DNA of 64,000 bases, from positions 1 to 64,000 of IMG/VR virus record IMGVR_UViG_3300023174_000112; one strand, written 5' to 3'. Of this stretch, positions 3,897-63,024 are shown piece after piece. Position 1 is the stretch's first letter. Every line of letters begins with the position of its first letter. Source of the stretch: a virus. A program made the translations under genes and the position numbers. Under the pieces are notes generated by a model, which made no database searches, was not told where the DNA came from, and saw only the letters and a list, made by a program, of their open reading frames with translations.

Positions 3897-3904
3897 CGTA
3901 AATA
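3897..3904 (+). promoter_or_regulatory. T4-type late promoter (CGTAAATA) before the acidic core gene
   Basis: TAAATA core at 3899-3904, 32 bases before ATG 3936, leaving room for the TAGGAG ribosome site. Confidence 0.55.
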
Positions 3905-8939: not shown

Positions 8940-8947
8940 TATTTACA
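8940..8947 (-). promoter_or_regulatory. T4-type late promoter (TGTAAATA), leaderless type
   Basis: On the minus strand TGTAAATA is followed by TCTC and then the ATG of the TPR-glycosyltransferase-like gene: a four-base gap. Confidence 0.6.
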
Positions 8948-25400: not shown

Positions 25401-28400
25401 CGCCCAGTGCCACAAATCGTGTGTTGATCAAGAATGAAACTGGTGCTAACCAGCCATACAATGGTATCTATTTGGTTACCAATGCTGGTAGTGCCGGAGC
25501 TGCATTTGTACTGACTCGTGCAACAGATTTTGACAATGGATCTCCGTCAGGTGAAATCCCAGGTGCATTCACATTCGTTGAAGATGGACCGGTCAATGCT
25601 GACACTGGCTGGGTATGCACCACAAATTCTCCAGTCACGGTAGGCACAACAAACATTGTGTTTGCTCAGTTCTCTGGTGCAGGACAGTACACAGCCAATA
25701 CTTCAGCAGGCCTGAGCCTGATTGGTACTCAATTCAATGCCAAAGTTGACAATGACACCACAGCATTTGACGTATCAGGTAATATTATTGTCAAAGCTGG
25801 TGCAAATCTTACTACTCCAAATATTGGTGCTGCTACTGGTACAAGTTTGAGCACGACAGGCAACATTACTGGTAATGTATTATTTGGTAACACAGTTAGC
25901 TCAGTGGGTAATGTTATTTCGGGCAATGTCAACACTGGTAACATAAGCCTGAGTGGCAACGTTATCAGCAACTTGACAGTCACTGGTCAAGTAACTGGTA
26001 GCAATATCTACTCCAATGGATATATATCAGCTTCTGGCACCATTGATACGTTGGGCAATATTGGTGGCGGCAATTTAAACACTGGAGGTTTGGTCAGTGC
26101 CACAGGCAACGTCCGTGGTGGTAATATCACCACAGCCAATGCTGTAACTGCTGGGTCAGTCAGTGCAAGTGGCAATGTCACTGGCGGCAATGTATTAACC
26201 GGTGGATTGATTAGTTCTACTGGTAACATCACAGGCAGCAATGTCAACACAGGCATTGTCAGCGCCACAGGCAATGTTGTTGCTGGCAACTTGAATGCAG
26301 CTGGATTGAGTCTAAGTTCAAATGTTGTATCTGCACTCAATGTCACAGGCAATATTGCTGGTGCAAATGTAACCACACCGGGATTGATTAGTGCCACAGG
26401 CAATGTCACAAGTGGCAACGTCAACACTGGCATTGTCAGTGCAACTGGCAACATTATTGGTGGAAACTTAAATGCAGTTGGATTGAGCCTAAGTGGCAAT
26501 GTTATCAGTGCATTGAACGTAACTGGCAATGTCAATGCTGGCAATGTCAATGCCACAGCAAACATTTATACTGATGGATACATTTACGCCAACACAGAAA
26601 TTGGTGGTGCTAACATAATATCACCTGGATTTGTAAGTGCTAATGGCAACATCATTGGTGGCAATGTCAAAACTGGTAATTTAAGCCTAAGTGGCAATGT
26701 ATTGAGCGCTATCAACTCAACATCAAATATCACCACAAGTGCTAACATTGCAGCCAACTACTTTATTGGTAACGGGTCACAGTTAACTGGACTGCCAAGT
26801 CCTAATAAAATTTACAACGGCACCTCAGAAGCCAACATTGGTACTGCAAACGGCAATGCCAATATTTCTATAAACGGCACATCAAATGTTGCTGTGTTCA
26901 GTCAAGACGGACTGGCGGTAACAGGAACTGTTTCCTCTAGTGGTAACATTACCACAGGCGGTTCTATTATCACAGGCGGTACTGGCACTGGTAACATCAC
27001 AGGTGCCAATGTTGTTTCGGCAATCACATTGAGTGCCACAGGCAATGTCATTGGCGGAAATGTCAATGCTGGCCAATTGTCTGTAAGTGGCAATGTAATC
27101 AGTCCATTGGATGTGACAGGCAATATCACCGCAGGTAATATCATATCTGTGGCTGCTGTTTCGGGTGCAAGTGTTAGTGCAAGTGGCAACATCACTGGCG
27201 GCAATTTGAATGCTGCTGGGTTGAGTTTAACCAGCAATGTTGTCAGTGCATTGAATGTCACAGGTAACATAGCTGGTGGCAATGTAACTACACCTGGACT
27301 GATCAGCGCTACAGGCAACGTCACTGGTGGTAACGTAAATGCAACCAACTTGAGTCTGAGTGGTAACGTTGTCAGTGCATTGAATGTCACTGGCAACGCC
27401 ACAGCAGGTAATATTATATCTATTGCTGCTATTTCAGGTGCTAGTGTCAGCGCAAGTGGTAACATCACTGGCGGCAATGTCAACACTGGTATTGTCAGTG
27501 CCACAGGCAACATTGAAGGTGGCAACATCAATGCAACAACATTGAGTGCTACAGGCAATGTCAATGGCGGCAATGTCAACACCAACAATGTTGTTGGTAC
27601 CGGTACTACAATCAAATCTACAGGCGATTTGAATCTGAGTGCAACTGGCAATGTTGTTGTCAATAGTTACATTAACAATGTAACAACTCCTGTGCAAGAC
27701 TCTGACGCAGCCAACAAAGGCTACGTTGACTCAGTGGCGCAAGGACTTGACCCCAAAGCATCAGTGGCTTATGCCACAACTGGTGCATTGCCAGCTTATA
27801 CCTACAACAATGGTACAAGTGGAGTTGGTGCTACCATCACTGCCAACACCAATGGTGCTTTGAGCATTGACAGCTCATCGCCTGGCGTCACAAATCGTGT
27901 GTTGGTTAAAAATGAAACAGGTGCTAATGCTCCTTACAACGGCATCTATGTGGTCACTGACACAGGTGGCGCAGGCTCACCATTTATATTGACCCGGGCC
28001 AGCGACTTCAATCAGCCTAGTGAAATTCCAAGTGCGTTTACTTTTGTTGAAGATGGTCCTACAAATGCTGACACTGGTTGGGTATGTACTACTAATGCTC
28101 CAGTCACTATTGGAACAACAAACATTGTATTTTCTCAGTTCTCTGGTGCAGGACAATACACAGCCAACACCTCAGCTGGTTTGAGCCTAACTGGTACAGT
28201 ATTCAGTGCCAAAGTTGACCAAAATACCACTGCATTTGATGGGTCAGGCAACATCATTGTCAAGGCCAATGCAAATCTTACAACACCCAATATTGGTGCG
28301 GCCACTGGTACAAGTTTAAGCACCACTGGCAACATCACTGGCAATGTGTTGATTGGTAACACAATCAGTACCACAGGCAATGTGATTGCAGGTAATTTGA

Positions 28401-31400
28401 ATGCCGCTGGATTGAGTTTGAGCTCAAACGTTGTCAGCAACTTGAATGTAACTGGCGTTATTGCTGGTGCTAACGTAACAACACCTGGACTGGTTTCAGC
28501 CACAGGCAACATCACGGGTGGCAACGTCAACACTGGCATTGTCAGTGCTTCAGGCAATGTTCAAGCAGGCAATTTGAATGCCGCTGGATTGAGTTTGAGC
28601 TCAAATGTTGTGAGTGACTTGAATGTTACCAGCAACATCACTGGTGGTAATGTACAGGCTGTCTCATTGTTGAAGACCAATAATTTCAGCATCAGCGGCA
28701 ATGTCACCGGTGATTTGTTGCCCAGTGCCAACATCACATATGATTTGGGTAGCAGTACACAACGCTGGAAAGATTTGTGGTTGTCTGGCACTAGCATCAA
28801 ACTAGGTGCACAGACAATATCAGCCAATGCTACAGCAGTCAGTGTTGGCGCCACAACTGATATTGCAGCCAACAATGTCACAGCAGTAAGTCAGGTAAGT
28901 GGTGCCACAGTCAGTGCAAGTGGCAACGTAACCGGTGGCAACGTATTGACTGGTGGATTGATTAGTGCCACAGGCAACGTAACTGGTGGCAATTTGGTCA
29001 CTGGTGCGGCAGTCAGTGCTGGTAGTGTCAGTGCAAGTGGCAACGTAACTGGTGGCAATATTGTAACCAGTGCCGCAGTCAGCGCCGGATCAGTTAGTGC
29101 AAGTGGCAATGTAACCGGTGGCAATCTAAACGCCGCTGGACTAAGTTTGTCAAGCAATGTTGTATCTGCACTCAATGTCACAGGTGACATTGCCGGTGCT
29201 AACGTAACAACACCTGGACTGATCTCAGCCACAGGCAACGTAACTGGTGGCAACATTGTAACCAGTGCCGCTGTAAGTGCTGGTTCTGTGAGTGCAAGTG
29301 GCAATGTAACCGGTGGCAATCTGAATGCCTCAGGATTGAGTCTAAGTGGCAATGTGTTGAGTGTGATTAATAGCACTTCAAACATCACCACAACTGGCAA
29401 TATTGCTGCCAACTACTTGTTGGGTAACATTGCATACGCAAATGGTTACAGTGCCAGCAAAATTTACAATGGCGTCAGCGAAGTCAACATTGGCATTGCC
29501 AACGGCAATGCCAATATCAGCATAAACGGCAGCTCAAATGTTGCTGTGTTCAGCACAAGTGGTTTGGACATCACTGGTACAATAAGTGCCAATGGTAATA
29601 TCACTGGTGGCAATCTGAATGCAACCAACTTGAGCCTAAGTGGCAATGTGGTGAGTGCATTGAACATCACTGGCAATGCCACAGCAGGTAACATTATATC
29701 TGTGGCAGCTATCTCGGGGGCCAGTGTCAGCGCAAGTGGTAATGTTCAAGCAGGCAACGTCAATGCCACTGGACTGAGCCTAAGTGGCAATGTGGTGAGT
29801 GCATTGAACATCACAGGCAATGCCACAGCAGGCAACATCATATCTGTGGCAGCTATTAGTGGTGCAAGTGTCAGTGCAAGTGGCAACATCACAGGTGGCA
29901 ACGTCAACACCGGTATTTTGAGCGCCACAGGCAACATTGAGGGTGGCAACATCAATGCAACCACACTGAGTGCCACAGGCAATGTCAATGGTGGCAATGT
30001 CAATACCAATAGTATTGTTGGTACCAGCACCACAATCAAGTCCACAGGTGATTTAAATTTGAGTGCTACAGGTAATGTTGTGGTCAACAGCTACATCAAC
30101 GGCGTCACAGCCCCTGTACAAGACACAGATGCAGCCAACAAAGCCTATGTTGATTCAGTTGCACAAGGACTGGATGTCAAAGCATCAGTGCTTTATGCTA
30201 CAACCACTGCACTGCCTGCTTATACCTACAACAATGGCACAGCAGGAGTAGGCGCAACCATCACTGCTAACGCATTTGGTACTTTGAGCATTGACAGCTC
30301 ATCACCCAGTGCCACAAGTCGTGTGCTGATCAAGAACGAAACAGGAGCCAATGCACCTTACAACGGTATCTATTTGGTCACCAACGCTGGTGGTGCTGGT
30401 GCTGCATTTGTTCTGACTCGTGCCACTGATTTTGATAACGGATCTCCATCTGGAGAAATTCCTGGCGCATTTACTTTTGTTGAAGATGGTCCTACCAACG
30501 CCGACACTGGTTGGGTGTGTACTACCAATGCTCCAGTCACAGTGGGCACAACAAACATTGTGTTTGCTCAGTTCTCAGGTGCAGGACAATACACAGCCAA
30601 CACTTCTGCTGGTTTAAGTCTAATTGGTACGCAGTTCAATGCCAAAGTTGACAACAACACCACAGCGTTTGACGTATCAGGCAATATCATTGTCAAAGCC
30701 AGTGCCAATTTGACCACACCCAACATTGGTGCTGCCACAGGTACTAGCCTAAGCACCACTGGCAACATCACTGGTGATGTGGTAATTGGTAATGTGATCA
30801 GCACAACTGGCAACGTAATTGCTGGCAATTTGAATGCTGCTGGTTTGAGTCTAAGCTCAAATGTTGTTAGTAATCTAAATGTCAGTGGCAATGTTGCTGG
30901 TTCAAATATCACAACTCCTGGATTGATCTCTGCCACAGGCAACGTCACAGGTGGTAATGTTATTACCAGCGCCGCAGTCAGTGCAGGTTCAATGAGTGCA
31001 AGCGGCAACATCACTGGTGGTAATTTGAATGCTGCTGGATTGAGTTTGTCAAGCAATGTTGTCAGCAACTTGAATGTCACAGCAAATATTGCTGGTGGCA
31101 ATGTAACCACCGCTGGACTGGTTTCAGCCACAGGCAACATCACCGGCGGCAATTTAATCACCAGTGCTGCCGTCAACGCAGGCAGTGTCAGTGCAAGTGG
31201 CAATGTCAATGGTGGCAACATCATATCTGCCGCAGCAATATCAGGCGCAAGTGTTAGTGCCAGTGGCAACGTTGACGGCGGTAATGTCAATACAACAATA
31301 TTGAGTGCCACAGGCAACATCATTGGCGGTAACTTGAATGCTGCTGGATTGAGTTTGTCAAGCAATGTTGTCAGCGCATTGAATGTAACAGGCGCCATCG

Positions 31401-40185: not shown

Positions 40186-41559
40186 TTAACTTGACTTTTG
40201 TCCTGGTTGTGTTAGCGGGAAAGGCTTGGGTGATTTACCACCATCTTGATTGCCGTTGTCAGCCTTGGGTCGCAGTATTTCGCTGAGACTCTGGCGACTG
40301 GGAATGTTGCCTTGATCAGTTGTGTTCACAGTGTATGTATTGTTTACAAAGGTACTGCGTAAAGTATTGTTGGTAGGCCCATTGTTGAGATTGGTACGCA
40401 CATTGTCCTCAATTTTGATCCATCTTGTGCCATCGTAACGGAACAGTCTATTTGGCATGTAATCCAATCGCAAAGCATAATCTCCAGCCACAGGGTTCAG
40501 TGGGAAACTCACACCTGGAGTGACTGGCAAGCCATTTGGTGCCTGACCATCCCCAGTGAGATAGCCCATGGTATAGCCTTCTCCACGCGGTGTCACATTC
40601 ATGCCACCTTGTGTTCCGTCCACAGTGTCGCCAGACTGGTTGGTCAATGACACAGGATTGGCTGGCTGTCCATCCAGTAGTGTGGGCACAATGTAGAACT
40701 TGGTAACATCATAACCTGACAGCGGAACGTCAGCATCTGCTTGAATCAGGATGGCATCATTGATTTGTGTGTCTTTATCGCGAGTGCCCTGGATGTCACT
40801 GATTGTGGCAGGAGTGTATGGCTTCCAAAATTCTGTGTTGTTGATATCTGTGTCAGCAGGAGTATTTTTCTGTGCTTGATAGTAGGTATCGCCATAGTTC
40901 ACAATAGTGCCAGCAGGATAAAAATTGCCCGGATCCCAGATGTTTTCTTGTACAAATGGCTTGTTGGTAATTTGTGCAAACTCTTGTTGATCTTTCATTG
41001 GTGTGCATTTTACACGCCACAAGTGAGGCAACCAAGTTACTGAAAATCCTTCACTTGCAAAGTCAGCATCTTGTATCACATAGTATCTAGGCAATGCTCT
41101 GGGGATGTCCTGATTCAGCGGATGATAGTCTTTCAAATTGGGAATCTCTATCACATCACCGTTCATGAGCTTGCGACCAAATGTGTCAATCATGGTGTTG
41201 TAGTGAAACGTCATGAATATGGTGTCGTTGTTCAAGAACAAGCCAAATTGTGTCAAGTCAAAGTCCACATCTTGTGTGTTGTACACACCGCGCATGACAT
41301 ACACATCTGGATCATAGATCCTGTCACGGTTTTCTAGCAACAGCAAGTCTTGAATGTTCAGCACATCTACATCTGCGTAGGTAGGTTGTGTGGCATCAAA
41401 GTTTCCTGAGAATGCAGAATCCTCGCCTCCAGCTTGTGGTCCCATGTAGCGATGGATGTAAATATCAAGGCCACCAACAGTGTACATTTCACGTATGGTG
41501 CGGTCCAGGAATTGGTAATCTCTGGTGCGATTTGGGCGGTATAGGGATAAGCGTGGCAT
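40186..41559 (-). CDS. 14: Neck protein (T4 gp14-like)
   Basis: 457 residues from the ATG at 41559 (MPRLSLYRP). Conserved neck segments are 'DRIYDPDVYVMRGVYN', 'DTFGRKLMNGDVIEIPNLKDYHPLN' and 'VTWLPHLWRVKC', matching T4 gp14 (256 residues), with an additional C-terminal half rich in Asn, Gly and Thr. Known role: with gp13 it forms the neck joining head to tail. An upstream in-frame ATG at 41592 exists, but a perfect TATAAATA lies between the two, four bases before 41559, so the later start is preferred. The next gene, gp15, follows after 3 bases. Confidence 0.88.
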   Translation of the reverse strand: MPRLSLYRPNRTRDYQFLDRTIREMYTVGGLDIYIHRYMGPQAGGEDSAFSGNFDATQPTYADVDVLNIQDLLLLENRDRIYDPDVYVMRGVYNTQDVDFDLTQFGLFLNNDTIFMTFHYNTMIDTFGRKLMNGDVIEIPNLKDYHPLNQDIPRALPRYYVIQDADFASEGFSVTWLPHLWRVKCTPMKDQQEFAQITNKPFVQENIWDPGNFYPAGTIVNYGDTYYQAQKNTPADTDINNTEFWKPYTPATISDIQGTRDKDTQINDAILIQADADVPLSGYDVTKFYIVPTLLDGQPANPVSLTNQSGDTVDGTQGGMNVTPRGEGYTMGYLTGDGQAPNGLPVTPGVSFPLNPVAGDYALRLDYMPNRLFRYDGTRWIKIEDNVRTNLNNGPTNNTLRSTFVNNTYTVNTTDQGNIPSRQSLSEILRPKADNGNQDGGKSPKPFPLTQPGQKSS

Positions 41560-41563
41560 TCTA

Positions 41564-41571
41564 TATTTATA
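41564..41571 (-). promoter_or_regulatory. Perfect T4-type late promoter (TATAAATA), leaderless type
   Basis: Minus strand, four bases (TAGA) before ATG 41559 of gp14. It is divergent from the sigma-70 promoter at 41598. Confidence 0.8.
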
Positions 41572-42001: not shown

Positions 42002-43135
42002 ATGAACGCAACACGAGCCGCTGTCAAGCCATTGAACCCTCGCAGTCCTGATACCAAGTACACAGGGCTGGAGCCCACATGGCGTGTGCAACCCACAGAT
42101 GACCGCACCAGTCAAATGAGTTCGGCATTTTCGTGGTACAATTACTTCTACGGCAAAAAAGATGCACGTGAAATGCTGGTAGCATATTTAGAAAGCCATG
42201 GACGCCGAGCAGATGTTCGTGCATTAAAAGGAGTGCCAGATCACGCTATACGACTGACCACTGCATGGTTGTGCCGTATGAGCATGGTGGGATTGGAACT
42301 AACAGACACTGAGACAGTGCGATTGGAAGGCTACATTCAGGAAATACTAAAATCACGTGAACCCGAAGTGGTACAACAAGAAGTGGTAGCAGTGGCCAAA
42401 CCCAACATTCAAGACCGGTTGCGAGAAAAGGTATCGGAATGTGCCGGAGAGCTGGATGGCATGTTTGATGAGTTTGTTGTTGCTGGCGCTAAAATGTCAG
42501 CAGACTACAAACCAATCACAGTTATCCGTGGACTGAATGTAGCACCGCAGATGATTTCGGACATTGCAAATATTTGGAAAGCCAAATTGTCAGAGTTTGA
42601 AACTGTGATTGAGGGCAAAGATGCACAGTTGGTAGAAGGCTACAGTCACCTCAGCAAAATCCAAATGCGTAATCTTGTGAAGTTCTGTGAAGCAGTGATC
42701 AATGACTGCGGCGCTTATGTGCAGATCAAGAAAGTTGAACGCAAGCCACGCAAGGTCAAGGCAGTGCCACCTGAGAAACGTGCCGCAAAATTCAAAGTGC
42801 TCATGGACTTTGCTGAGCTCAAACTCAAAGGCCTGCCAGCCGCAAGTCTTGTGGACAAAGCCGAAGCATGGTTGTACGATACCAAGAAGCGCAAGTTGAT
42901 ACATCTTGTTGCTGACAGCCACACACAGGCATTCACTGTGAAAAGCAACAGCATCATTGGTTTCAGCACCATAGAGACCATGCAGAAAACTGTGCGCAAA
43001 CCAGCAGATGTTGTCAAGGCTGTGCAAGCCGCAGGCAAGCCAGCGGCACGTAAGATCTACAAAGACCTTACCACAACAGAAACCCCGTTCAATGGACGCG
43101 GCACAGAGAATTTGATGGTGCTCAAAGCCTGGTAA
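42002..43135 (+). CDS. Conserved phage protein of unknown function (377 aa), early-type
   Basis: The N-terminal part contains 'QMSSAFSWYNYFYGKKDAREMLVAYLE', a motif I associate with uncharacterised proteins of aquatic T4-like phages. The middle is helical and charged; residues about 245-265 are strongly basic ('KKVERKPRKVKAVPPEKRAAKFK'). The C-terminus 'ARKIYKDLTTTETPFNGRGTENLMVLKAW' looks conserved. The basic stretch would suit nucleic acid binding, but this is inference. It is driven by its own sigma-70 promoter with AAGGAG six bases before ATG 42002, so early or middle expression is likely. Function unknown. Confidence 0.75.
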   Translation: MNATRAAVKPLNPRSPDTKYTGLEPTWRVQPTDDRTSQMSSAFSWYNYFYGKKDAREMLVAYLESHGRRADVRALKGVPDHAIRLTTAWLCRMSMVGLELTDTETVRLEGYIQEILKSREPEVVQQEVVAVAKPNIQDRLREKVSECAGELDGMFDEFVVAGAKMSADYKPITVIRGLNVAPQMISDIANIWKAKLSEFETVIEGKDAQLVEGYSHLSKIQMRNLVKFCEAVINDCGAYVQIKKVERKPRKVKAVPPEKRAAKFKVLMDFAELKLKGLPAASLVDKAEAWLYDTKKRKLIHLVADSHTQAFTVKSNSIIGFSTIETMQKTVRKPADVVKAVQAAGKPAARKIYKDLTTTETPFNGRGTENLMVLKAW

Positions 43136-43142
43136 GTAGTAC

Positions 43143-44087
43143 ATGCTCGAAAACACTAGATATTTGCTGGACAAGGTCGAATTTTACATCACGAATGTTT
43201 GCAACTTAAATTGTGATCAGTGCAACCGATTCAATGATTATAAATTTACCGGATGGCAACGTTGGAGTGACTATGAGGCCATTCATCAACGTTGGGCTAA
43301 ATTGATTGACATCAAGCACCTGGTTATCCTTGGTGGCGAGCCGTTGCTCAATCCTTCTATAAATGAATGGATAACAGGATTAGGCAACATATGGAAAAGG
43401 CCGATACAGATCTTAACCAACGGAACACGATTAAATCAAACACCGGGACTTTATGAAACATTGCTGTCCTGGGATCCAGACCCCACACACCTAAAGCATT
43501 GGATTGGTATCAGTGTTCACAATATGGCAGACATGGATTTTTATGTACAAGAAGCCAAAAAATTTCTTCACGGAGATATACAAACTTCAACAGATAAAGC
43601 AACCATATATGGAGCTGATTTGGCACTAGTGGACGAGAACGGCGTTCGAGTACATTTTTGGATACAAGACAATTTTTACAATGCCGCAGTTACCAACAAT
43701 AACAACGGCGAGTTAACATTGTTCAACAACGATCCAGAACTGGCACACCGACACTGTGGATTTGTACAATGGAAAAACTATCATTTTATACGTGGTACTT
43801 TGAACAAGTGCGGTCCTGCCCCATTGTTTCCTGAGTTTGATCAACAACATCCACTGGCCATCAGCTCAGCTGATCGTGAACTGATCAATGCATATCGGCC
43901 CTACATCATAGATCAAGTGGAACAGCAAGGCACTGATATTCTAAAGACAATTGACGACATGCTGCCTCAATGCAAATTTTGCCCAGTGCCTGCAGATATG
44001 AAATATCGACAAATTCATGCTACACTGAAAAATAAAACAATTCCTATATCGCAAATCAAAGCAAAAGAACTGCAGGAATTGCAATAA
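43143..44087 (+). CDS. Radical SAM protein 1, with C-terminal cysteine-rich (SPASM/twitch-like) region
   Basis: 314 residues. The radical SAM cluster motif is 'CNLNCDQC' (Cys20, Cys24, Cys27), followed by 'LVILGGEPLLNP', the usual SAM-binding GGE motif. Further cysteines near the C-terminus ('HRHCGFVQW', 'NKCGPAP', 'PQCKFCPV') suggest a second iron-sulfur cluster, as in SPASM or twitch enzymes that often modify peptides. The substrate is unknown. It lies 7 bases after the 377-residue gene, probably on the same transcript, and its stop codon is inside the late promoter of gp13. The gene looks more AT-rich than the structural genes, which suggests separate acquisition. Confidence 0.82.
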   Translation: MLENTRYLLDKVEFYITNVCNLNCDQCNRFNDYKFTGWQRWSDYEAIHQRWAKLIDIKHLVILGGEPLLNPSINEWITGLGNIWKRPIQILTNGTRLNQTPGLYETLLSWDPDPTHLKHWIGISVHNMADMDFYVQEAKKFLHGDIQTSTDKATIYGADLALVDENGVRVHFWIQDNFYNAAVTNNNNGELTLFNNDPELAHRHCGFVQWKNYHFIRGTLNKCGPAPLFPEFDQQHPLAISSADRELINAYRPYIIDQVEQQGTDILKTIDDMLPQCKFCPVPADMKYRQIHATLKNKTIPISQIKAKELQELQ

Positions 44088-44090
44088 ATA
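44083..44090 (+). promoter_or_regulatory. T4-type late promoter (AATAAATA) before gp13
   Basis: Contains the stop codon of the radical SAM gene (44085-44087). The expected RNA start is about 44096. Confidence 0.65.
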
Positions 44091-44092
44091 CA

Positions 44093-44107
44093 GGGACTTG
44101 GAGTCCC
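44093..44107 (+). promoter_or_regulatory. Ribosome-site hairpin of gp13, split by the late start site
   Basis: GGGACT (44093-44098), loop TGG, AGTCCC (44102-44107), three bases before ATG 44110. The loop and 3' arm hold GGAG. RNA from the promoter at 44083 should begin about 44096 and lose half of the 5' arm, freeing the site. Confidence 0.55.
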
Positions 44108-44109
44108 AC

Positions 44110-44880
44110 ATGCCAGAACAGCAACAACAATCACTGCCCACACTGAAGCAGAACTTAATCGAATATGTCAAGCTACAGTTGGGCGGCGACATAATTGATT
44201 TAGAATTAGACCCCTCACACTACGAAGCGGCTTATCAAAAAACCATTGGCACTTACCGCCAACGAGCCAACAATGCCTATGAAGAAAGCTACAGTTTCAT
44301 GCAGTTGGTCCAGGACGTTAACATTTATGAACTGCCACAAGAAGTCATAAGTGTGCGACAAATCTTTCGCAGAACATTTGGCGACAGTTCAGGTCCGTTT
44401 GCATCAAACTTTGATCCGTTTGCACAAGCTTCGGTCAACGTTTATCTAATGAACTTCAACGTGGCAGGTGGCTTGGCCACTTACGATTTCTACAGTCAAT
44501 ACATTGAACTGGCTGGTCGTATGTTTGGCGCATTCATGGCCTACACATACAATCCCGTGACAAAGAAACTGCAACTGATCCGTGACCCCAAAGGCTCAGG
44601 CGAAACTGTGTTGCTGTGGAGTTATAACTTGAAGCCTGAATTTAACTTGTTGAGCGATTATCAAATTAGTCAATGGATCCGTGATTACATGGTGGCCAAC
44701 TGCAAAATGATCATTGGCGAAGCACGTGAGAAATTTGGCACCATTGCTGGACCGCAGGGCGGCGGAACCTTAAATGGCGCTGCCATGAAGACTGAAGCAC
44801 AGACTCAAATGGACGCTCTCATTGAACAACTCAAAATGTACGTGGACGGTTCACAGCCACTCACCTGGGTCATTGGATAA
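44110..44880 (+). CDS. 13: Neck protein (T4 gp13-like)
   Basis: 256 residues from ATG 44110, against about 309 in T4. The family pattern is clear: N-terminal 'LPTLKQNLIEYVKLQLGGDIIDLELDPSHYEAAYQKTIGTYRQRANNAYEES', then 'YELPQEVISVRQIFRRTFG', and a C-terminal half with 'QISQWIRDYMVANCKMIIGEAREKFG'. Known role: head-side neck ring that joins the portal to the tail. Its usual partners gp14 and gp15 are 2.5 kb away on the other strand. A late promoter with a ribosome-site hairpin precedes it. An earlier TTG at 44098 is in frame but lies within the hairpin and is less likely. Confidence 0.9.
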   Translation: MPEQQQQSLPTLKQNLIEYVKLQLGGDIIDLELDPSHYEAAYQKTIGTYRQRANNAYEESYSFMQLVQDVNIYELPQEVISVRQIFRRTFGDSSGPFASNFDPFAQASVNVYLMNFNVAGGLATYDFYSQYIELAGRMFGAFMAYTYNPVTKKLQLIRDPKGSGETVLLWSYNLKPEFNLLSDYQISQWIRDYMVANCKMIIGEAREKFGTIAGPQGGGTLNGAAMKTEAQTQMDALIEQLKMYVDGSQPLTWVIG

Positions 44881-44884
44881 GGAA

Positions 44885-45586
44885 TTGACAATAATAAAAG
44901 ATGTATTGATTGTAGGGTGCAGTTTTGTTCATGCCTTGCAGAATATTAATTACTCAAGAATTGATCGATACGGATCTTGTGCGGCATCAAATACCAGCAT
45001 TGCGTCAAGAGTAATGTATCAACTTGCCCAGCAAGAATATAAAAAAGTAGTTGTAATATGGTCCGGAATTAATCGACTCAGTGTCCCGGTAGATGTTGAG
45101 TTACACAAGTTATACCAACTTGATAGGGATCCTTACACGTTTTATGACAATCAAGATCCAATGGTATGGTATCACAGCGGTGGAATACTAGCCGCTGAGG
45201 TTCACTCAAATATTCCAAAGTTTATTAAAAACTATTTTAAAGCTCAATATAAAACAGTTTCTCCTCGTTACTTAACAGATCAAACATTACAAAACATTAT
45301 TGGAGTTCAGTCGTTGTTGGAAAATAAAAAAATCAAGTACGAGATGAACTTTATATACGATATACACAAAGATTATTCAACATTTAGATGGGGATACTCA
45401 TTGGGAAAAATTGATACCAGTTCTCCATTGTATACCGCAGTGAACTGGGATAAGATTACTCAACACACCAGCCTATATGAATGGGCAAAATTACACGGTC
45501 ATCTGGCAGATGATCAGTGGCATATTACGTCAAACGGAATGATCAAATGGTTTGAGTCTGATTTGGGAATAGACTTACTCTCTTAG
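44885..45586 (+). CDS. SGNH/GDSL-hydrolase-like protein
   Basis: About 233 residues. The four SGNH blocks can be read loosely: block I 'LIVGCSFVHALQ', block II 'GSCAASNTSIASR', block III 'VVIWSGINRLS', block V 'LADDQWHITSNG' with the Asp-x-x-His pair. Family members are esterases, lipases or carbohydrate acetyl-esterases; the target is unknown, and the block I residue is Cys-Ser rather than Asp-Ser. The likely start is TTG 44885, preceded closely by AAGGA; an in-frame ATG at 44822 would overlap gp13 by 59 bases. The gene is visibly AT-rich compared with gp13, suggesting a different origin. Confidence 0.6.
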   Translation: MTIIKDVLIVGCSFVHALQNINYSRIDRYGSCAASNTSIASRVMYQLAQQEYKKVVVIWSGINRLSVPVDVELHKLYQLDRDPYTFYDNQDPMVWYHSGGILAAEVHSNIPKFIKNYFKAQYKTVSPRYLTDQTLQNIIGVQSLLENKKIKYEMNFIYDIHKDYSTFRWGYSLGKIDTSSPLYTAVNWDKITQHTSLYEWAKLHGHLADDQWHITSNGMIKWFESDLGIDLLS

Positions 45587-45587
45587 A

Positions 45588-45616
45588 TAGACACGTATCT
45601 AATATCCTGCTATAAT
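45588..45616 (+). promoter_or_regulatory. Sigma-70 promoter placed at the start codon of the exonuclease gene
   Basis: TAGACA (45588-45593), 17-base spacer, TATAAT (45611-45616), ATG at 45622. The expected RNA start coincides with the ATG. Confidence 0.7.
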
Positions 45617-45621
45617 CAATC

Positions 45622-46140
45622 ATGGACTTGATGATTGACATTGAAGGTTTGGCCACAGGCCCTGAAGCAACAATCTTAACCATTGCGGCCCAGGCGTTTG
45701 ATCCTCTTGGCGCTGGCTACTACAAACAGCAGTATTATGCCAGGGTTGATCTTGAAAGCCAAGAAACACGTACCATTGAACAAGGCACTATTAATTGGTG
45801 GGCCACTCAAGGCGCCGCACAAGACGAAGCCTTTGCAGAAGATGGTCGTATACCCTTGGACCAAGCACTAGATGAATTGCACAAGTTGTGTTGGAAATGC
45901 AATCGTATCTGGATGAACGGACCCACCTACGACGCCAACATACTTGAGCATGCTTACAAGAGTTATGGTAAGCCTTTACCTTGGCAATATTATAAGATAC
46001 GTGATGCACGAACAGTGTACAGTTTATATCCAGGGTTGCCCAAACCTGCGACCAGCCACCATGCGCTGGAAGACTGCCGCAGACAAATCGACATGCTGCA
46101 AGCCACTCTTAAACATTTAAACGTTACTGAATTGGCCTAA
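45622..46140 (+). CDS. dexA: 3'-5' exonuclease, DEDDh type (T4 DexA-like)
   Basis: 172 residues. The catalytic residues are in place: 'MIDIEGL' (Asp6, Glu8), 'NGPTYDANIL' (Asp104) and 'SHHALEDC' (His146 or 147, Asp151). The order and spacing match the RNase-T/Rv2179c/DexA group. T4 DexA is an exonuclease A on single-stranded DNA, not essential. There is no Shine-Dalgarno, and the sigma-70 -10 box ends five bases before the ATG, so early leaderless mRNA is likely. The 3' end overlaps the converging B12-type radical SAM gene by 17 bases, with no terminator visible between them. Confidence 0.85.
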   Translation: MDLMIDIEGLATGPEATILTIAAQAFDPLGAGYYKQQYYARVDLESQETRTIEQGTINWWATQGAAQDEAFAEDGRIPLDQALDELHKLCWKCNRIWMNGPTYDANILEHAYKSYGKPLPWQYYKIRDARTVYSLYPGLPKPATSHHALEDCRRQIDMLQATLKHLNVTELA

Positions 46141-48076
46141 TCCAGTTTCCTGTGCCTTGCCAGGGAAATTTGAAAACAAAATCTTTTCCGAATTCACCAG
46201 GTGGATGATCCTGTCCATGAATGAAAATTTCATGGTCAAAGTCGGCATGCCAATCACCGTTGATATCTATTTTAAATAGGTACCTGGCTTTGTAGTAACT
46301 GTTCATCCTTGGTAAATTAAATACGCCTAGTTCTTGTGTGTCGTACTCAGGATCAAATTTTAAATCTAATTCATATGGACCCAAGGCCAACCATAGCACT
46401 CTTAGCAAAGGCCAAATTTCGTTGACCACAGTGGCATTCAATGGATGGTCAGTTATTTTGATAATATCAAAATCAAACTGTTCGTAAGGTATGTCAGTGA
46501 TAATGTTTGCTGGATCATATGTTAATGTATAGTGCTCGGGCTTTTCCAGGCCTGGCCGCTCATTCATAGTATGAAAACCATGTCTGCGATTTTTTATCAA
46601 ATGGTTCAAAATAACATTGACACATTTATAACGTATCAACCGTTGAAAAATAGTGTTGGTAAAATCATTACTACGCCATTGATGAGTCATTTGATGCTCT
46701 GAAATTCCAAACTTTGATCGTTCATAGTTCAATGGAGTATCCATGCCAATTTGACAAGTACCAAAACTCCGACCAAATATGTTATAATTTCGAGTGCGCC
46801 ATAGCAGTGTCATGGTATCTGCTACATCATTGTAGCCTTCGCCAGGGAACCCCACAAACCAATTGGTGTGACACTGAATGCCTGCCTTTGTAAAATCTTT
46901 TAAGTTTTGTTCAACTGCATCTCTCTTAACATTCTTTTTCATTAGATCAAGCACACGCTGGCTACCAGATTCGATACCAAAGCTCAACATGCCGCACCCA
47001 CCTTTTTTGAGAATTTTGATATACTCGAGATCCATTCGCCCGTCACATCTTGCATATCCCATCCAGTGCAAGTAAATTTTACGGTCAATTAATCCTTGGG
47101 CAAATTCTTTTAATTCTTTTAAATTGCCGTTGACCAAGCTATCAATAAACCATACACTGGTAATTCCAAGGGTGTTGTATTGATATTCCAGTTCATCTAA
47201 TATGTTGGTTGCTTGCCTACCCCGATATCTCCAAAAAGTGGTTTCGCTACAAAATTGACACTTTGCCACACATCCTCGACTGAGTTCGGCACTCACGCCT
47301 TTTTGGTTATACATTGATAGATCAAAATCGCTGTAGTCTGGGTATGGTAAACTGTCAAGATCTATTCTGATACTTTTGTCATGCACTAGAAATTTTTCAT
47401 CAATCTTGATACCAGATTCAATTTTTTCCATTAAATCTAAGAATACCACTTCTCCTTCGCCCACTACAATATGATCTATTATGCTGGTATCTTCAATTTT
47501 TTCTTGTATGGCAGTTGGACCACCTGCAATTATAACAATATCAGGTAAAAGGATACGCAGTTGTTGAATCATCCATTTTGTGGCTTTGTTGGTAGTGGTA
47601 AAAATACTAAATCCCATGACATCGGGTTTGAATGCCACAATTTTTTCCAAGTATTCATTCAACAGGGGTTCGATCATTGGATGTATTTCGGTATAATAAT
47701 CATCGTTGGTCCACTTCCAATCCTTGTACCCGCCCCAATAAGTTTTGTCAAATTTTGAATAGCATGCGGCATTTATATCATATGACACAGTTGCAAATCC
47801 ACTGGCTCTACTGAGTGCAGTGATCCTGGCCAAGTTATATGGAGGAATGTACGGGGCCCACTCAGGCAGTAGAGCCAATGCCAACCGTGTTTTTCTAGTA
47901 GATTGATGATTGATAACAGGTTGAATGAGATTTTTTTGTGGTGTTGATTTTCTGAGATTGGCCAGCTGCAATGCCTTGAGCATGGCCATATCCCGAGCGC
48001 CACCATCGGTGGTTTCAACTAATTTTGTGAGATCTGGAGCAGCCGCAGACTGTATATCAAAAATCTTATTATTCAT
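46124..48076 (-). CDS. Radical SAM protein 2, cobalamin-binding type (650 aa)
   Basis: Residues about 50-230 are a B12-binding-like Rossmann domain with 'DVMGFSIFTTTNKAT', 'IVIIAGGPTAIQ' and 'IVVGEGEVVFLDLM'. The radical SAM core follows with 'SRGCVAKCQFC' (Cys269, Cys273, Cys276), 'SVWFIDSLVNG' and 'CGMLSFGIESGSQRVLDLMKK'. The C-terminal 250 residues are not recognised. Enzymes of this class methylate or rearrange unactivated carbons and need cobalamin from the host. Such a large complete one is rare in a phage. Minus strand, convergent with dexA, AT-rich compared with neighbours. The ATG is four bases after a TGTAAATA late core and has no Shine-Dalgarno. The substrate cannot be told. Confidence 0.85.
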   Translation of the reverse strand: MNNKIFDIQSAAAPDLTKLVETTDGGARDMAMLKALQLANLRKSTPQKNLIQPVINHQSTRKTRLALALLPEWAPYIPPYNLARITALSRASGFATVSYDINAACYSKFDKTYWGGYKDWKWTNDDYYTEIHPMIEPLLNEYLEKIVAFKPDVMGFSIFTTTNKATKWMIQQLRILLPDIVIIAGGPTAIQEKIEDTSIIDHIVVGEGEVVFLDLMEKIESGIKIDEKFLVHDKSIRIDLDSLPYPDYSDFDLSMYNQKGVSAELSRGCVAKCQFCSETTFWRYRGRQATNILDELEYQYNTLGITSVWFIDSLVNGNLKELKEFAQGLIDRKIYLHWMGYARCDGRMDLEYIKILKKGGCGMLSFGIESGSQRVLDLMKKNVKRDAVEQNLKDFTKAGIQCHTNWFVGFPGEGYNDVADTMTLLWRTRNYNIFGRSFGTCQIGMDTPLNYERSKFGISEHQMTHQWRSNDFTNTIFQRLIRYKCVNVILNHLIKNRRHGFHTMNERPGLEKPEHYTLTYDPANIITDIPYEQFDFDIIKITDHPLNATVVNEIWPLLRVLWLALGPYELDLKFDPEYDTQELGVFNLPRMNSYYKARYLFKIDINGDWHADFDHEIFIHGQDHPPGEFGKDFVFKFPWQGTGNWIRPIQ

Positions 48077-48080: not shown

Positions 48081-48088
48081 TATTTACA
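48081..48088 (-). promoter_or_regulatory. T4-type late promoter (TGTAAATA), leaderless type
   Basis: Minus strand; four bases (CGCT) before ATG 48076. Confidence 0.6.
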
Positions 48089-48142: not shown

Positions 48143-48799
48143 ATGAGTAAAATTATTGGCGTTTGTGGATTTATTGGTTCAGGCAAAGATACCATTGCAG
48201 ATTATCTTGTAAATTTACATCACTTCCGTAGAGAAAGTTTTGCCAACACACTCAAAGACGCTGTGAGTGCTGTGTTTGGCTGGGACCGGACCATGCTGGA
48301 GGGCCGCACCAAGCAAGCCCGTGAATGGCGTGAACAAGTGGATCCTTGGTGGGCCGAACGTCTGGGAATACCACACTTGACACCACGTTGGATATTACAA
48401 AACTGGGGCACAGAAGTATGCCGCAAAAATTTTCACGATGACATTTGGATTGCCAGCTTGGAAAACAAACTACGTGCCAGCACCGACGACATTGTTATAA
48501 GCGACTGCAGATTTCCCAACGAAATAGCAGCCATCAAAAAAGCTGGTGGGCGGGTGGTGCGTGTGGTACGTGGCGCTGAGCCTGAGTGGTATGGCGCAGC
48601 CGTGAGCCGCAATCGTGGACCCAACGGCAACTCAAGCTGGGCACTCAGTGGCAGGAAACTAGAACAACTGGGCATTCATGACAGTGAAACAGCCTGGGTA
48701 GGCACACGATTTGATGCTGTGCTAGACAACAATGGTACCTTGGAAGACCTATATCAGCAGGTCAAGCGTCTGGCTCAAGATCCCCCGGCCGCCAAATAG
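48143..48799 (+). CDS. 1: Deoxynucleoside monophosphate kinase (T4 gp1-like)
   Basis: 218 residues from ATG 48143. The P-loop is 'GFIGSGKDTIADYL' (residues 9-16 core), followed by 'FANTLKDAVSAVFGWDR', 'RWILQNWGTEVCRKNFHDDIW' and 'DIVISDCRFPNEIAAIKKAGG', all typical of T4 gene 1 dNMP kinases. It phosphorylates dNMPs to dNDPs and so feeds phage DNA synthesis. Upstream in-frame codons up to 48128 exist, but 'MSKIIGVCGF' is the natural family start. The 3' end overlaps the opposing HNH/zinc gene by 38 bases. It is the only nucleotide-metabolism kinase in the window. Confidence 0.92.
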   Translation: MSKIIGVCGFIGSGKDTIADYLVNLHHFRRESFANTLKDAVSAVFGWDRTMLEGRTKQAREWREQVDPWWAERLGIPHLTPRWILQNWGTEVCRKNFHDDIWIASLENKLRASTDDIVISDCRFPNEIAAIKKAGGRVVRVVRGAEPEWYGAAVSRNRGPNGNSSWALSGRKLEQLGIHDSETAWVGTRFDAVLDNNGTLEDLYQQVKRLAQDPPAAK

Positions 48800-49106
48800 T
48801 TTCAACACGTGAAATTTCTTCCACACAATTCCTGCACACTGTGCGAAGATTTTTCAAAGCTGAATTGTTGAGATCTCCATCCACATGATAAACCAGCAGT
48901 TGACTGATAATTCTAGCCCTGAACCCACATCGATCACATGTGGGTTTTTTCTTGTATCCTGAGGATTGCCAACGAGGCACTGGCGGCTTTAGTTTTTTTC
49001 TTTTTTTGATGCAAGTGGTACACTGAGATCGATAATACACTCGATCGTATTTGTGGTAAGCAATGGCTCGGTGCCGGATTTTACAAACGCTACACATGGG
49101 TCTCAT
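48762..49106 (-). CDS. HNH-like zinc-binding protein, possible endonuclease
   Basis: 114 residues from ATG 49106. Two zinc-binding halves are seen: 'CSVCKIRHRAIAY ... CTTC' and 'CDRCGFRA ... VYHVDGDLNNSALKNLRTVCRNC'. The second has the H-x-DG-x-x-N-x8-N-L-x-x-VC-x-x-C layout of HNH nucleases, and similar small proteins are common in aquatic T4-like phages. Activity is not certain because the first His of a classic HNH pair is not obvious. An in-frame ATG at 49121 lies inside the GATAAATA promoter core, so 49106 is preferred; it is five bases after that core. It is divergent from the tail sheath gene. Confidence 0.72.
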   Translation of the reverse strand: MRPMCSVCKIRHRAIAYHKYDRVYYRSQCTTCIKKRKKLKPPVPRWQSSGYKKKPTCDRCGFRARIISQLLVYHVDGDLNNSALKNLRTVCRNCVEEISRVETIWRPGDLEPDA

Positions 49107-49111: not shown

Positions 49112-49119
49112 TATTTATC
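49112..49119 (-). promoter_or_regulatory. T4-type late promoter (GATAAATA), leaderless type
   Basis: Minus strand; five bases before ATG 49106. Divergent partner of the sheath promoter at 49170. Confidence 0.65.
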
Positions 49120-49169: not shown

Positions 49170-49177
49170 TATAAATA
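49170..49177 (+). promoter_or_regulatory. Perfect T4-type late promoter (TATAAATA) of the tail sheath gene
   Basis: 25 bases between its end and ATG 49203; leader with AAGGAAG ribosome site. Confidence 0.85.
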
Positions 49178-52567: not shown

Positions 52568-52575
52568 GGTAAATA
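52568..52575 (+). promoter_or_regulatory. T4-type late promoter (GGTAAATA) of the tail tube gene
   Basis: Directly after the hairpin; 22 bases before ATG 52598, with CAGGAGA ribosome site. Confidence 0.65.
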
Positions 52576-55269: not shown

Positions 55270-55277
55270 CATAAATA
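55270..55277 (+). promoter_or_regulatory. T4-type late promoter (CATAAATA), leaderless type
   Basis: Four bases (GGGC) before ATG 55282; no Shine-Dalgarno. Confidence 0.65.
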
Positions 55278-55281: not shown

Positions 55282-55803
55282 ATGACTCGTAAACTGGAAG
55301 AACTATTTGATTTGCCCACAACAGAACAGGCCGAAGTAGCAGCCGCAGTTGATGCCATCAGTCGTGACGATGTGCGCACTCAACTACAAACCCTGGATGA
55401 AACCATAGACAAAATTGATTCTGCCTTGCCCGGAGTGCGTGGCCTAGAAGCCAATGACGAAGAAATGGACAATCTAGCAGACTTGGCCAAAAGCAGTTAC
55501 AATGATCTCATGGATCTTGGTATGCAAGTGGACTCAAGATTTGCCAGCGAAATCTTCAGTGTAGCCAGCAACATGTTGGGACATGCCATCACAGCAAAAA
55601 CAGCCAAGATGGACAAGAAGCTGAAAATGATTGACTTGCAGTTGAAGAAGATGCGGCTGGATCAGCAACAAAGTGTGATAGATGCCAAGGCCGCAGATGC
55701 CGGCGGCGAAGCCATGCAAACAGCACAGGGCATGGTGCTGAGTCGCAATGATCTGCTGGAACGACTGTTGGCCAGCAAAGATCAAAAAGATAAAAAAGAA
55801 TAA
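55282..55803 (+). CDS. 16: Terminase small subunit (T4 gp16-like)
   Basis: 173 residues; T4 gp16 is 164. The centre 'MDNLADLAKSSYNDLMDLGMQVDSRFASEIFSVASNMLGHAITAKTAKMDKKLKMIDLQLKKMRLDQQQ' is the coiled-coil core of the gp16 family and is very well conserved. Known role: ring that recognises phage DNA and regulates the gp17 motor. In T4, 16 and 17 are adjacent; here they are separated by about 7 kb of small virion and accessory genes. The start is ATG 55282 with the late promoter four bases upstream; the stop codon lies inside the next late promoter. Confidence 0.9.
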   Translation: MTRKLEELFDLPTTEQAEVAAAVDAISRDDVRTQLQTLDETIDKIDSALPGVRGLEANDEEMDNLADLAKSSYNDLMDLGMQVDSRFASEIFSVASNMLGHAITAKTAKMDKKLKMIDLQLKKMRLDQQQSVIDAKAADAGGEAMQTAQGMVLSRNDLLERLLASKDQKDKKE

Positions 55804-60895: not shown

Positions 60896-60903
60896 TATAA
60901 ATA
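60896..60903 (+). promoter_or_regulatory. Perfect T4-type late promoter (TATAAATA), leaderless type
   Basis: Begins directly after the previous stop codon (60893-60895); five bases before ATG 60909. Confidence 0.8.
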
Positions 60904-60908
60904 CCCAT

Positions 60909-61715
60909 ATGAAAAAACTACTATTTGTGCTGTTGCTCACAGCCTTTCAATCAGCACAGGCCTGGGATCAAACTGCCCCTCTAGCAGTGGACCACTGTAA
61001 AGCCCACAATCCTTATGGTTGGGCACAGACTAGCAAACCGGTCACAGCCATTTGTCGTAGAGCATACTTTGTTGCTTATGATGCAGCCGCAAAGATTCCC
61101 AACTATGTCACATACACATTGACACCACCCAATGCACTAGGCTGCTGGCCAAGAACCAATGCGTTTGTGGCTGATGCTAGTGTAGCCAATGGACCACGTC
61201 CAGATGACTATGCTGGCACCGGCTACGACAAAGGTCATGCTGCACCTGATGGTGACTTATCATGGGACCAACAAGTGGAATACGAAAGTTTCTTAATGAC
61301 CAACATGTATCCACAACTGGGTGGACTTAATCGTGGCATTTGGAAACTGCTGGAAACTTCAGTGCGTGGCTGGACTGTGCAACAAAATCAAGCCTACACA
61401 ATCTATGTGGGTGCAGTATACAACACAGCCACTGATAAGAAAATTGGCAATGGTGTTGTTGTGCCACATGGTTTCTACAAGATTGTGATCAACAACCAAA
61501 CAGGTGCCATGGCTGGTTGGTACTTCCGACACGAAGGTGGACAGGGCAATGATTTGACCAAGGCTCGTGCAGCCATATCGGCTATAGAAAACAAAGCCGG
61601 AGTGAAGTTTGCTTATCCTGCCAATGCCCGGGAACTGCCCATTGGCAGCGAATGGCCCGTGGACTTTGGCGCACTCACAACGGCCAAACGTGCCAAATGC
61701 AAAAACAGTGACTGA
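60909..61715 (+). CDS. Exported DNA/RNA non-specific endonuclease (Serratia-nuclease type)
   Basis: 268 residues. Residues 1-18 form a clear Sec signal peptide (KK, then a Leu-rich core, then 'SAQA' before Trp19), so the mature protein is periplasmic or secreted. The active site of the bba-Me nuclease family is present: 'YDKGHAAPDGDLSWD' (His110, DRGH-type motif) and 'NRGIWKLLE' (Asn141, Glu149). The Asn-to-Glu spacing of eight residues equals that of Serratia nuclease (Asn119, Glu127). Cys30/Cys49 may form a disulfide. Known activity: cuts single- and double-stranded DNA and RNA. Expressed late from a leaderless-type promoter and linked to a membrane mini-protein. A role against superinfecting phage DNA or in scavenging is inferred. 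Confidence 0.88.
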   Translation: MKKLLFVLLLTAFQSAQAWDQTAPLAVDHCKAHNPYGWAQTSKPVTAICRRAYFVAYDAAAKIPNYVTYTLTPPNALGCWPRTNAFVADASVANGPRPDDYAGTGYDKGHAAPDGDLSWDQQVEYESFLMTNMYPQLGGLNRGIWKLLETSVRGWTVQQNQAYTIYVGAVYNTATDKKIGNGVVVPHGFYKIVINNQTGAMAGWYFRHEGGQGNDLTKARAAISAIENKAGVKFAYPANARELPIGSEWPVDFGALTTAKRAKCKNSD

Positions 61716-61717
61716 GC

Positions 61718-61846
61718 ATGATTCACTATCACTTGTATCACGCCGCTTGGACAGCGGCGTTTGCATGGTTGATATGGCAACATGGTTGGATTCCGTTTGT
61801 CGTAGCGTATCTGGTCATTGGCACCATTTGTTTCTGGCGAGCCTGA
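61718..61846 (+). CDS. Membrane mini-protein of 42 aa
   Basis: ATG 61718 to TGA 61844-61846, two bases after the nuclease stop, so translation would be coupled. The sequence begins MIHYHLYHAAWTAAF and has two hydrophobic stretches (residues about 9-20 and 25-40) with Trp residues at the flanks and one His-Gly-Trp turn, as in small inner-membrane proteins. No family is recognised. Small membrane proteins such as T4 Imm, Sp and holin-like factors act in superinfection exclusion or lysis control, so a link to the exported nuclease is a hypothesis. Caution: a hairpin (61740-61760) lies within it and could instead be a terminator. Confidence 0.5.
   Translation: MIHYHLYHAAWTAAFAWLIWQHGWIPFVVAYLVIGTICFWRA
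61740..61760 (+). terminator. GC-rich hairpin after the nuclease gene, possible terminator
   Basis: ACGCCGC - TTGGACA - GCGGCGT, 7 perfect pairs, followed only by TTGC. It lies inside the mini-ORF, so it may instead be a coding coincidence of Ala codons. Confidence 0.35.
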
Positions 61847-61851
61847 TTCAC

Positions 61852-61859
61852 CGTAAATA
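61852..61859 (+). promoter_or_regulatory. T4-type late promoter (CGTAAATA), leaderless type
   Basis: Four bases (ACGC) before ATG 61864. Confidence 0.6.
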
Positions 61860-61863
61860 ACGC

Positions 61864-63024
61864 ATGTCTAACTTTTATTGTGCCGCGCCCTGGCGGGGAC
61901 TGCATATCAATCCCCGAGGCGATGTCAAAACCTGCTGTGCTGGTGACCCCAACATGTTGGGCAACCTCAATGATCATAGCATTGAACAAATACTCAATAG
62001 CAATTTAATGACTGAGATACGTGCCAGTCTCTCACAAGGACAAGCACACGAATACTGTTCAAACTGTGTGCGAGCAGAACGGTTTGGCGCAGACTCAGAA
62101 CGTGCCTGGCACAACAATGTCAATCCTGACTTTGATTACAGCACCGCAGGCGATCAATACCATTATCCTGTGATTGTAGACGTGCGTTGGAATACCACAT
62201 GCAATTTGAGTTGCAACTATTGTGGCGAAGCATGCAGTAGTAAATGGGCAGGAATCAAAAACATACCTTTTAAATCTGGTGCTAGGCCCTACTATGAACA
62301 AGTGTGTGACTTCATTGAACAACACTATGAACACATACACGAAGTTGCGCTAGTGGGCGGCGAGCCGTTGTTGCTGCCAGAGAACGATCGACTACTGGAT
62401 GTTATCCCAGACACTGCTATTGTCACACTGATCACTAACTTGAATGTGGATTTACAAACAAACAAAATATTCCGTAAATTAGCACAGCGCAAAAGAGTTG
62501 GCTGGAGCATGAGCTTTGACAACATAGACCAACGTTTTGAATACGTACGACACGGCGGCAACTGGATGGTGTTGCAAGAAAACTTAAAGACCATACAACA
62601 GTTAATGAAGTCACAAGGACAGTGGGGCGGTGTTCATGCAGTGTACAACATGTACAATGCCACACGCATTTGTGAATTCAGACAGTTTGTGCAAGATGCA
62701 GGCGCCACTGTATTATGGCAAAACTTGTTTCAACCTGAGTACTTGGATCCGTTCCTGCACGGACCTGAGTTAGCTGATTTGGCTGCACAAGAAATTGAAA
62801 ATTTCTATGCCATGAATATAGCAACACCAGCTGAACGCCAATTCTTTGATCAGGCATTAAATAATTATCGTGCAATAAAACAAGAACGTCCTGGGATAAC
62901 ACAGCAGTTCCGCCAGCACATACATGACAACGAATCCAAGTATCATACTGATACTGCTGGTAAGTTCAAACAGTTATGGCCTGAATTAGCAGAAAGAATA
63001 TTGAATGATATCGCCACCAAATAA
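61864..63024 (+). CDS. Radical SAM protein 3, twitch-domain type
   Basis: 386 residues. The radical SAM motif is 'CNLSCNYC' (Cys113, Cys117, Cys120) with 'VALVGGEPLLLP' behind it. The N-terminal 80 residues carry five more cysteines (Cys6, Cys24, Cys25, Cys65, Cys68) in a 'CAAPWRGLHINPRGDVKTCCAG ... YCSNC' layout, which is the twitch/SPASM cluster fold placed before the core instead of after it. This architecture is known as twitch-domain radical SAM proteins in bacteria and aquatic phages; substrates are not known. It has a leaderless-type late promoter, and its 3' end overlaps the terminase large subunit gene by 20 bases, so the two are co-expressed. Confidence 0.85.
   Translation: MSNFYCAAPWRGLHINPRGDVKTCCAGDPNMLGNLNDHSIEQILNSNLMTEIRASLSQGQAHEYCSNCVRAERFGADSERAWHNNVNPDFDYSTAGDQYHYPVIVDVRWNTTCNLSCNYCGEACSSKWAGIKNIPFKSGARPYYEQVCDFIEQHYEHIHEVALVGGEPLLLPENDRLLDVIPDTAIVTLITNLNVDLQTNKIFRKLAQRKRVGWSMSFDNIDQRFEYVRHGGNWMVLQENLKTIQQLMKSQGQWGGVHAVYNMYNATRICEFRQFVQDAGATVLWQNLFQPEYLDPFLHGPELADLAAQEIENFYAMNIATPAERQFFDQALNNYRAIKQERPGITQQFRQHIHDNESKYHTDTAGKFKQLWPELAERILNDIATK

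Follow-up and report, generated by a model that had tools for sequence, protein, structure and literature searches.

Late promoters fused to start codons in T4-related freshwater giant phages predict leaderless or near-leaderless late mRNAs

In a clade of uncultured freshwater giant (jumbo) phages related to T4, a class of genes carries a T4-type late promoter core set almost directly against the ATG, and we consider it highly probable, judging from sequence, that these fused promoters yield late mRNAs with no leader or next to none. In the mechanism that we propose, a −10-only box (TAAATA or TATAAATA) fused straight to the start codon would be read by a phage gp55-like sigma factor acting on the host RNA polymerase, transcription would begin on the A of the ATG or within about three bases of it (a leader of 0–3 nt), and translation would enter via the 5′-terminal AUG in place of a Shine–Dalgarno (SD) sequence. 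Late expression would then run in two modes at once. Portal, small head, accessory and enzyme genes would use fused leaderless promoters; others, such as the opener of the capsid run, the tail sheath and the tail tube, have the promoter 17–32 nt upstream in combination with an SD sequence. The actual transcript start, the use of gp55 at the fused sites and translation from the terminal AUG are what we infer; the leaderless reading agrees with all in silico tests run, namely the sharpness of the gap, the comparison with shuffles, the SD energies, the restriction to ATG, conservation, the placement at strand switches and the signature of the start base.

The DNA analysed here (the window) consists of the first 64,000 bases of the 90,132-base IMG/VR record IMGVR_UViG_3300023174_000112. 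It encodes a T4-type portal protein (PF07230, E 2.9e-101) together with the major capsid protein gp23 (PF07068), a prohead protease, a tail sheath and a tail tube. Because relatives of the window genes are carried by IMG/VR contigs of up to 364 kb, the 90-kb record probably represents part of a jumbo phage genome. Among cultured phages, the portal is closest to those of Phosso, Atu_ph07 and PA5oct (48–57% identity), and a host search for portal relatives in bacterial genome assemblies returned none. Radical SAM/SPASM genes sit among the virion genes of the window (61864–63024, and 46124–48076 within the region 42002–48076), and a large related family of them exists in the clade.

The preliminary description of this sequence had listed eight ATGs preceded at four or five bases by a late core, and every one of them is present with the gap claimed. 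On the plus strand these are the small post-portal gene (TATAAATA at 3595–3602, gap 5, ATG 3608, CDS 3608–3826), a phrog_16202 gene (TAAATA at 55272–55277, gap 4, ATG 55282, CDS 55282–55803), a DNA/RNA non-specific endonuclease gene (TAAATA at 60898–60903, gap 5, ATG 60909, CDS 60909–61715) and a SPASM/radical SAM gene (TAAATA at 61854–61859, gap 4, ATG 61864, CDS 61864–63024). The minus strand contributes a TPR/glycosyltransferase-9-like gene (TAAATA at 8940–8945, gap 4, ATG 8935, CDS 7787–8935), a virion structural gene (TATAAATA at 41564–41571, gap 4, ATG 41559, CDS 40186–41559), a B12-binding radical SAM gene (TAAATA at 48081–48086, gap 4, ATG 48076, CDS 46124–48076) and an HNH-endonuclease-like gene (TAAATA at 49112–49117, gap 5, ATG 49106, CDS 48762–49106). 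Two sites at gap 7 were missing from that list, one at the portal gene itself (TAAATA at 1799–1804, plus strand, ATG 1812, CDS 1812–3599, PF07230) and one beyond the window at 64602 on the plus strand, and the same record holds two further gap-5 sites past the window, at 74888 (plus) and 81698 (minus). The portal stop codon TAA (3597–3599) doubles as the first half of the late core of the post-portal gene (3597–3602), and the intergenic distance between the two genes, 8 nt (rarely 11 nt), is kept in ten clade contigs.

Could an A+T-rich hexamer fall beside start codons by chance? All ATGs that open an ORF of at least 60 aa were scanned in the record, with no selection of starts, and the null was built from 100 dinucleotide-preserving shuffles of the 50 nt upstream of each ATG. 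Ten cores were observed at gaps 4–5 against 0.34 ± 0.62 in the shuffles (maximum 3 in 100), and twelve at gaps 4–7 against 0.73 ± 0.90; gaps 4 and 5 each occur five times, and every other gap from 0 to 60 occurs at most twice. Two observations are of the kind that coincidence would produce: the window as a whole holds no excess of TAAATA (30 found, 23.85 ± 4.30 expected), the positioning of the hexamer alone being unusual, and at 3597–3599 one core shares an upstream stop codon. Set against these are the shuffle nulls, which lie well below the observed counts, the lack of a comparable peak for the control hexamers TAATAA, AATAAT and ATTAAA, the absence of the layout from T4 and PA5oct, both of which are more A+T-rich, and the retention of the exact gap in relatives. 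ATAAAT and TTAAAT do rise at gaps 5–6, probably through their overlap with the core. We therefore regard chance as refuted by the shuffle and conservation tests and give it practically no credence.

The same pattern extends across the clade set, which comprises 11 contigs (the record and ten others with a portal orthologue; 1.295 Mb). Its histogram of gaps is bimodal, with 107 sites at gaps 4–7 and 136 at 17–32, and only 23 sites at gaps 0–3 and 8–16 together; the sparse valley at 8–16 would follow if transcripts carried either no leader or one with room for an SD sequence. Since orthologues recur among the contigs, so that pooled counts are not made up of independent observations, gene families and distinct upstream sequences are also reported. 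A core lies 3–8 nt from the ATG in 95 of 1,181 clade genes, spread over thirty families, and the same procedure finds 1 of 223 genes in T4 and 4 of 281 in PA5oct. In the 347-kb relative G017 alone, 39 sites lie at gaps 4–7, with 4.78 ± 2.27 expected. The comparison of the gap distribution with shuffled sequence, proposed beforehand as a check, thus places the peak far above chance in both the record and G017. The near-constancy that had been ascribed to the gap holds as a sharp peak at 4–5 and gives way at its upper edge, where the short class reaches 6–7 nt.

Ribosome binding divides the genes along the same line. Measured as the energy of pairing with the 16S tail in the region from −20 to −4, the anti-SD interaction averages −0.56 kcal/mol for short-gap genes, of which 6% lie at or below −4 kcal/mol, weaker than at random positions (−1.57 kcal/mol, 13%); coreless genes average −3.62 kcal/mol (46%) and genes with a distant core −4.93 kcal/mol (75%). 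The contrast drawn earlier between SD-less fused genes and longer-leader genes with clear SD sites is thereby borne out, clade-wide (energies of −4 kcal/mol or lower in 75% versus 6%) and at the eight listed sites, where seven give −2.8 to +1.6 kcal/mol and the eighth, 49106, which lies outside the energy table, is SD-less by sequence. The short-gap peak exists at ATG alone; GTG, TTG, CTG and ATT have none. Weaker structure at the 5′ end was considered as a further leaderless trait and rejected: short-gap genes do differ (−2.80 versus −3.92 kcal/mol), but the trait is not specific to them, since late genes with a leader give a value close to theirs (−3.01).

It is conceivable that the fused ATGs are not true starts, the real ones lying downstream and the ATGs being part of a 5′ leader or errors of annotation. 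The coding score favoured a slightly later start at a few sites, for instance 24 nt later at 60909, but the residues that immediately follow the fused ATGs are conserved in relatives, cultured relatives begin the post-portal gene at the matching place (e.g., MKLTELF, MLNELF), and the RefSeq starts of the cultured Pelagibacter phage HTVC008M coincide with its fused ATGs in the annotated stretches read. Misplaced starts are accordingly a very improbable explanation.

The conservation that bears on these arguments was counted over distinct upstream sequences of orthologues in IMG/VR relatives. The portal gene keeps gap 7 in 55 of 57, the post-portal gene (3608) gap 5 in 55 of 59, and the radical SAM gene (61864) gap 4 in 43 of 51; the structural gene (41559) has gap 4 in 24 of 28 and gap 6–7 in the remaining four. 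For the 55282 gene, gap 4 is found in 29 of 40 upstreams and in 7/7 clade orthologues, the other 11 of the 40 having no exact core, and those of them that were inspected look like pattern matches to other ATGs. The 8935 gene is fused in 7 of 8 clade orthologues (gap 4–5), and G017 has, at 248073, a fused core whose gene begins with an N-terminus similar to that of the 60909 gene. Of the families found in four contigs or more, 12 contain fused members, 8 are mostly leadered and one has both kinds. The 48076 family, in which the fused layout is not conserved in other members (1/6), and the 43143 family have a single fused member each and are two of the 12, so the layout can be gained or lost.

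That the fused core acts as a promoter is suggested, first of all, by its placement: 28 of the 95 short-gap genes open a run of genes on one strand, as against 74 of 959 coreless genes (Fisher p 6e-9). In the relative G005, two divergent genes (70479, minus; 70511, plus) have 31 bp between their ATGs, and this space is filled by two opposed cores; the same divergent layout occurs in G008 (86369, minus; 86401, plus) and G017 (100379, minus; 100407, plus), with about 27–31 bp between the ATGs. Profiles of the sites show a conserved TAAATA and no conserved −35 block, and the spacing to the expected start fits the T4 arrangement, in which the core precedes the start by about one helical turn. Two other candidate signs of a promoter were discarded, a terminator upstream of the core as proof of a start site (2/95 short-gap genes, about the random 2%) and an inverted repeat around TAAATA (CCCG-TAAATA-CGGG in the 61864 family), whose pairing over all sites, 19–25%, is at chance level.

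Bacterial transcription tends to begin on a purine preceded by a pyrimidine, and the bases after the core can be read in that light. T4 has 32 TATAAATA sites, and in 26 of them a purine occupies the sixth position past the core, a signal that by itself recovers the published placement of the T4 late promoter, TATAAATA at −13 to −6 (PMC1524935). At the clade's gap-5 sites, a pyrimidine precedes the ATG in 32 of 35 distinct sites (13 families), compared with 49% in other genes, and it is for this reason that transcription of the gap-5 class would be expected to start on the A of the ATG. At gap-7 sites an A occupies the fifth position in 16 of 18, with two pyrimidines after it, a pattern suggestive of a 3-nt leader, ACY-AUG; for gaps 6–7 as a whole a leader of 1–3 nt is likely. 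A pyrimidine before the ATG could in principle also reflect a translational preference.

In a further alternative, TAAATA beside the ATG is an A/U-rich, SD-independent element for translation initiation, embedded in a longer transcript that starts upstream. Several fused genes do lie inside plus-strand operons, where read-through transcription could reach them, and since several of them sit 8–16 nt past an upstream stop codon, translational coupling on a read-through mRNA could also make these operon-internal proteins. A translation element would not, however, be expected to match the late core that the same genomes use 17–32 nt upstream of other genes, and the motif is identical to it; nor does it account for the enrichment of fused genes at points where the coding strand changes and a promoter has to be present, for the two opposed cores that fill a 31-bp divergent gap, or for a base before the ATG that fits a transcription start. 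We consider this alternative unlikely, and the leaderless promoter remains the preferred reading.

The leaderless reading survives every sequence test run, but it does not describe late genes at large. The idea that a short gap is how late genes are usually built is contradicted by the capsid-run opener, sheath and tube, each of which has a core 22–31 nt upstream together with an SD sequence: the gene at 3936, which opens the prohead protease/major capsid run (TAAATA at 3899–3904, plus strand, gap 31), the tail sheath gene (TAAATA at 49172–49177, plus, gap 25, ATG 49203) and the tail tube gene (TAAATA at 52570–52575, plus, gap 22, ATG 52598). The 3936 family is leadered in 10/10 orthologues, with a mean SD energy of −6.8, and the sheath family in 5/8; for the tube gene, a leader is seen in the record. 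A leadered late core with an SD sequence also precedes the single open frame of 4,422 aa at 19487–32755. The fused families, for their part, include the portal, small head genes, glycosyltransferases, nucleases and radical SAM enzymes, and the leaderless class presumably has a lower output than the class with leader and SD sequence.

As to the machinery, 13 of the 15 clade records encode a gp55-like late sigma factor (E 1e-46 to 1e-59), but the 90-kb record has none. Searches for the T4-family gp45 clamp (phrog_223) gave none in the clade, PA5oct, Atu_ph07, Phosso, Munch or RaK2, and a bacterial beta clamp (PF02767) as its replacement was likewise found in neither the clade nor the comparison phages searched. 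The clade, PA5oct, Atu_ph07, Phosso and Munch have gp55 despite having no phrog_223 clamp (RaK2 was not among the gp55 searches), and the clamp of the clade may have diverged or been replaced. A search for the coactivator gp33 (phrog_254) recovered it from HTVC008M, Mosig and Melnitz but gave no hit in PA5oct, Phosso or the six clade records covered. With T4-family gp45 and gp33 both undetected, gp55-dependent activation is not reconstructed for the clade.

On the translational side, a dedicated mode, as had been suggested for these genes, would call for a specialised factor or state of the ribosome, and ordinary initiation on a 5′-terminal AUG is enough. A separate lead is the ribosomal protein bS21 (PF01165). 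Five large records of the group (G005, G015, G016, G018 and G019) encode it, as do HTVC008M, Mosig and Melnitz, whereas T4, the four cyanophages searched, KVP40, Aeh1 and RB49 gave no hit. The bS21 of HTVC008M is reported to be built into E. coli ribosomes, and bS21 expression in other freshwater phages to be tied to late replication (PMC9723584). Leaderless late mRNAs and phage bS21 might form one programme, in which, late in infection, ribosomes with phage bS21 favour SD-independent or 5′-AUG initiation and so select phage messages. This connection is a correlation with counterexamples, not a result, and we hold it to be improbable: G017 shows the layout but gave no bS21 hit, and bS21 is present in PA5oct, Atu_ph07 and Phosso, in which the layout was not seen.

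T4 itself shares with the clade the core, the dispensability of a −35 box and virion genes on both strands (PMC1524935, PMC2988020), as well as gp55, to which T4 late transcription adds gp33 and gp45. It differs in that its cores lie mostly 21–29 nt before the ATG, with a leader, and in showing no excess at gaps 4–7 (3 versus 5.77 ± 2.20 shuffled); Syn9, PA5oct and Phosso (400 of 469 kb scanned) show none either. For further phages, exact-pattern counts were compared with the reversed pattern, and by this measure KVP40, Aeh1, S-PM2, P-SSM2, phiM12, Cr30, RaK2 and Munch have no clear excess, while the counts in Atu_ph07, P-HM1 and RB49 are small and unclear. PA5oct, Atu_ph07, Phosso and Munch resemble the clade in their portal (about 45–57% identical), the same small post-portal gene and a gp55 homologue, but in these four phages no core abuts the ATG of either the portal or the post-portal gene.

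The layout does recur in HTVC008M (Kyanoviridae), which has 12 sites at exactly gap 5 and 13 at gaps 4–5 against 2.59 ± 1.71 (maximum 9 in 100 shuffles). Its fused products include CsgF, the tape measure, DNA end protector, head closure, tail tube cap, baseplate wedge and tail completion proteins; the DNA end protector and head closure genes diverge (18916, minus; 18943, plus), and the 26 bp between them are filled by two opposed cores, each with gap 5. This phage belongs to a distant lineage and differs from the clade in its single sharp gap of 5, in the common flank TAAATAGTA and in possessing a T4-type clamp and gp33. The layout is therefore present in at least two distant T4-like lineages. 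Mosig (6 sites at gap 5) and Melnitz (3) give no more than a hint of it, since their totals at gaps 4–5 fall inside the range of 100 shuffles.

We found no earlier description of leaderless late genes in T4-like phages or pelagiphages in the open literature searched. Late mRNAs of phiKZ are leaderless, and in mycobacteria and other bacteria leaderless mRNAs use a 5′-terminal AUG as start signal with no SD sequence; the latter differ from the clade in depending on cellular promoters, with no tie to a phage late sigma factor. In phiKZ, the conserved TATG of the late promoter runs up to the start base (PMC5312081), which makes short leaders possible there as in the clade, but transcription is by a phage non-virion RNA polymerase from another promoter, with no relation to gp55.

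The textbook late gene of a T4-like phage consists of promoter, leader and SD sequence; here, one short sequence would serve as both promoter and start signal. The layout raises the question of whether one late sigma factor sustains two levels of output through the distance between promoter and ATG. It predicts transcript starts base by base, and it would give gene callers a rule for start sites in many environmental phages. Since it spans widespread aquatic giant phages and a distant cultured phage of Pelagibacter, leaderless translation in lytic infection becomes testable in a culturable system.
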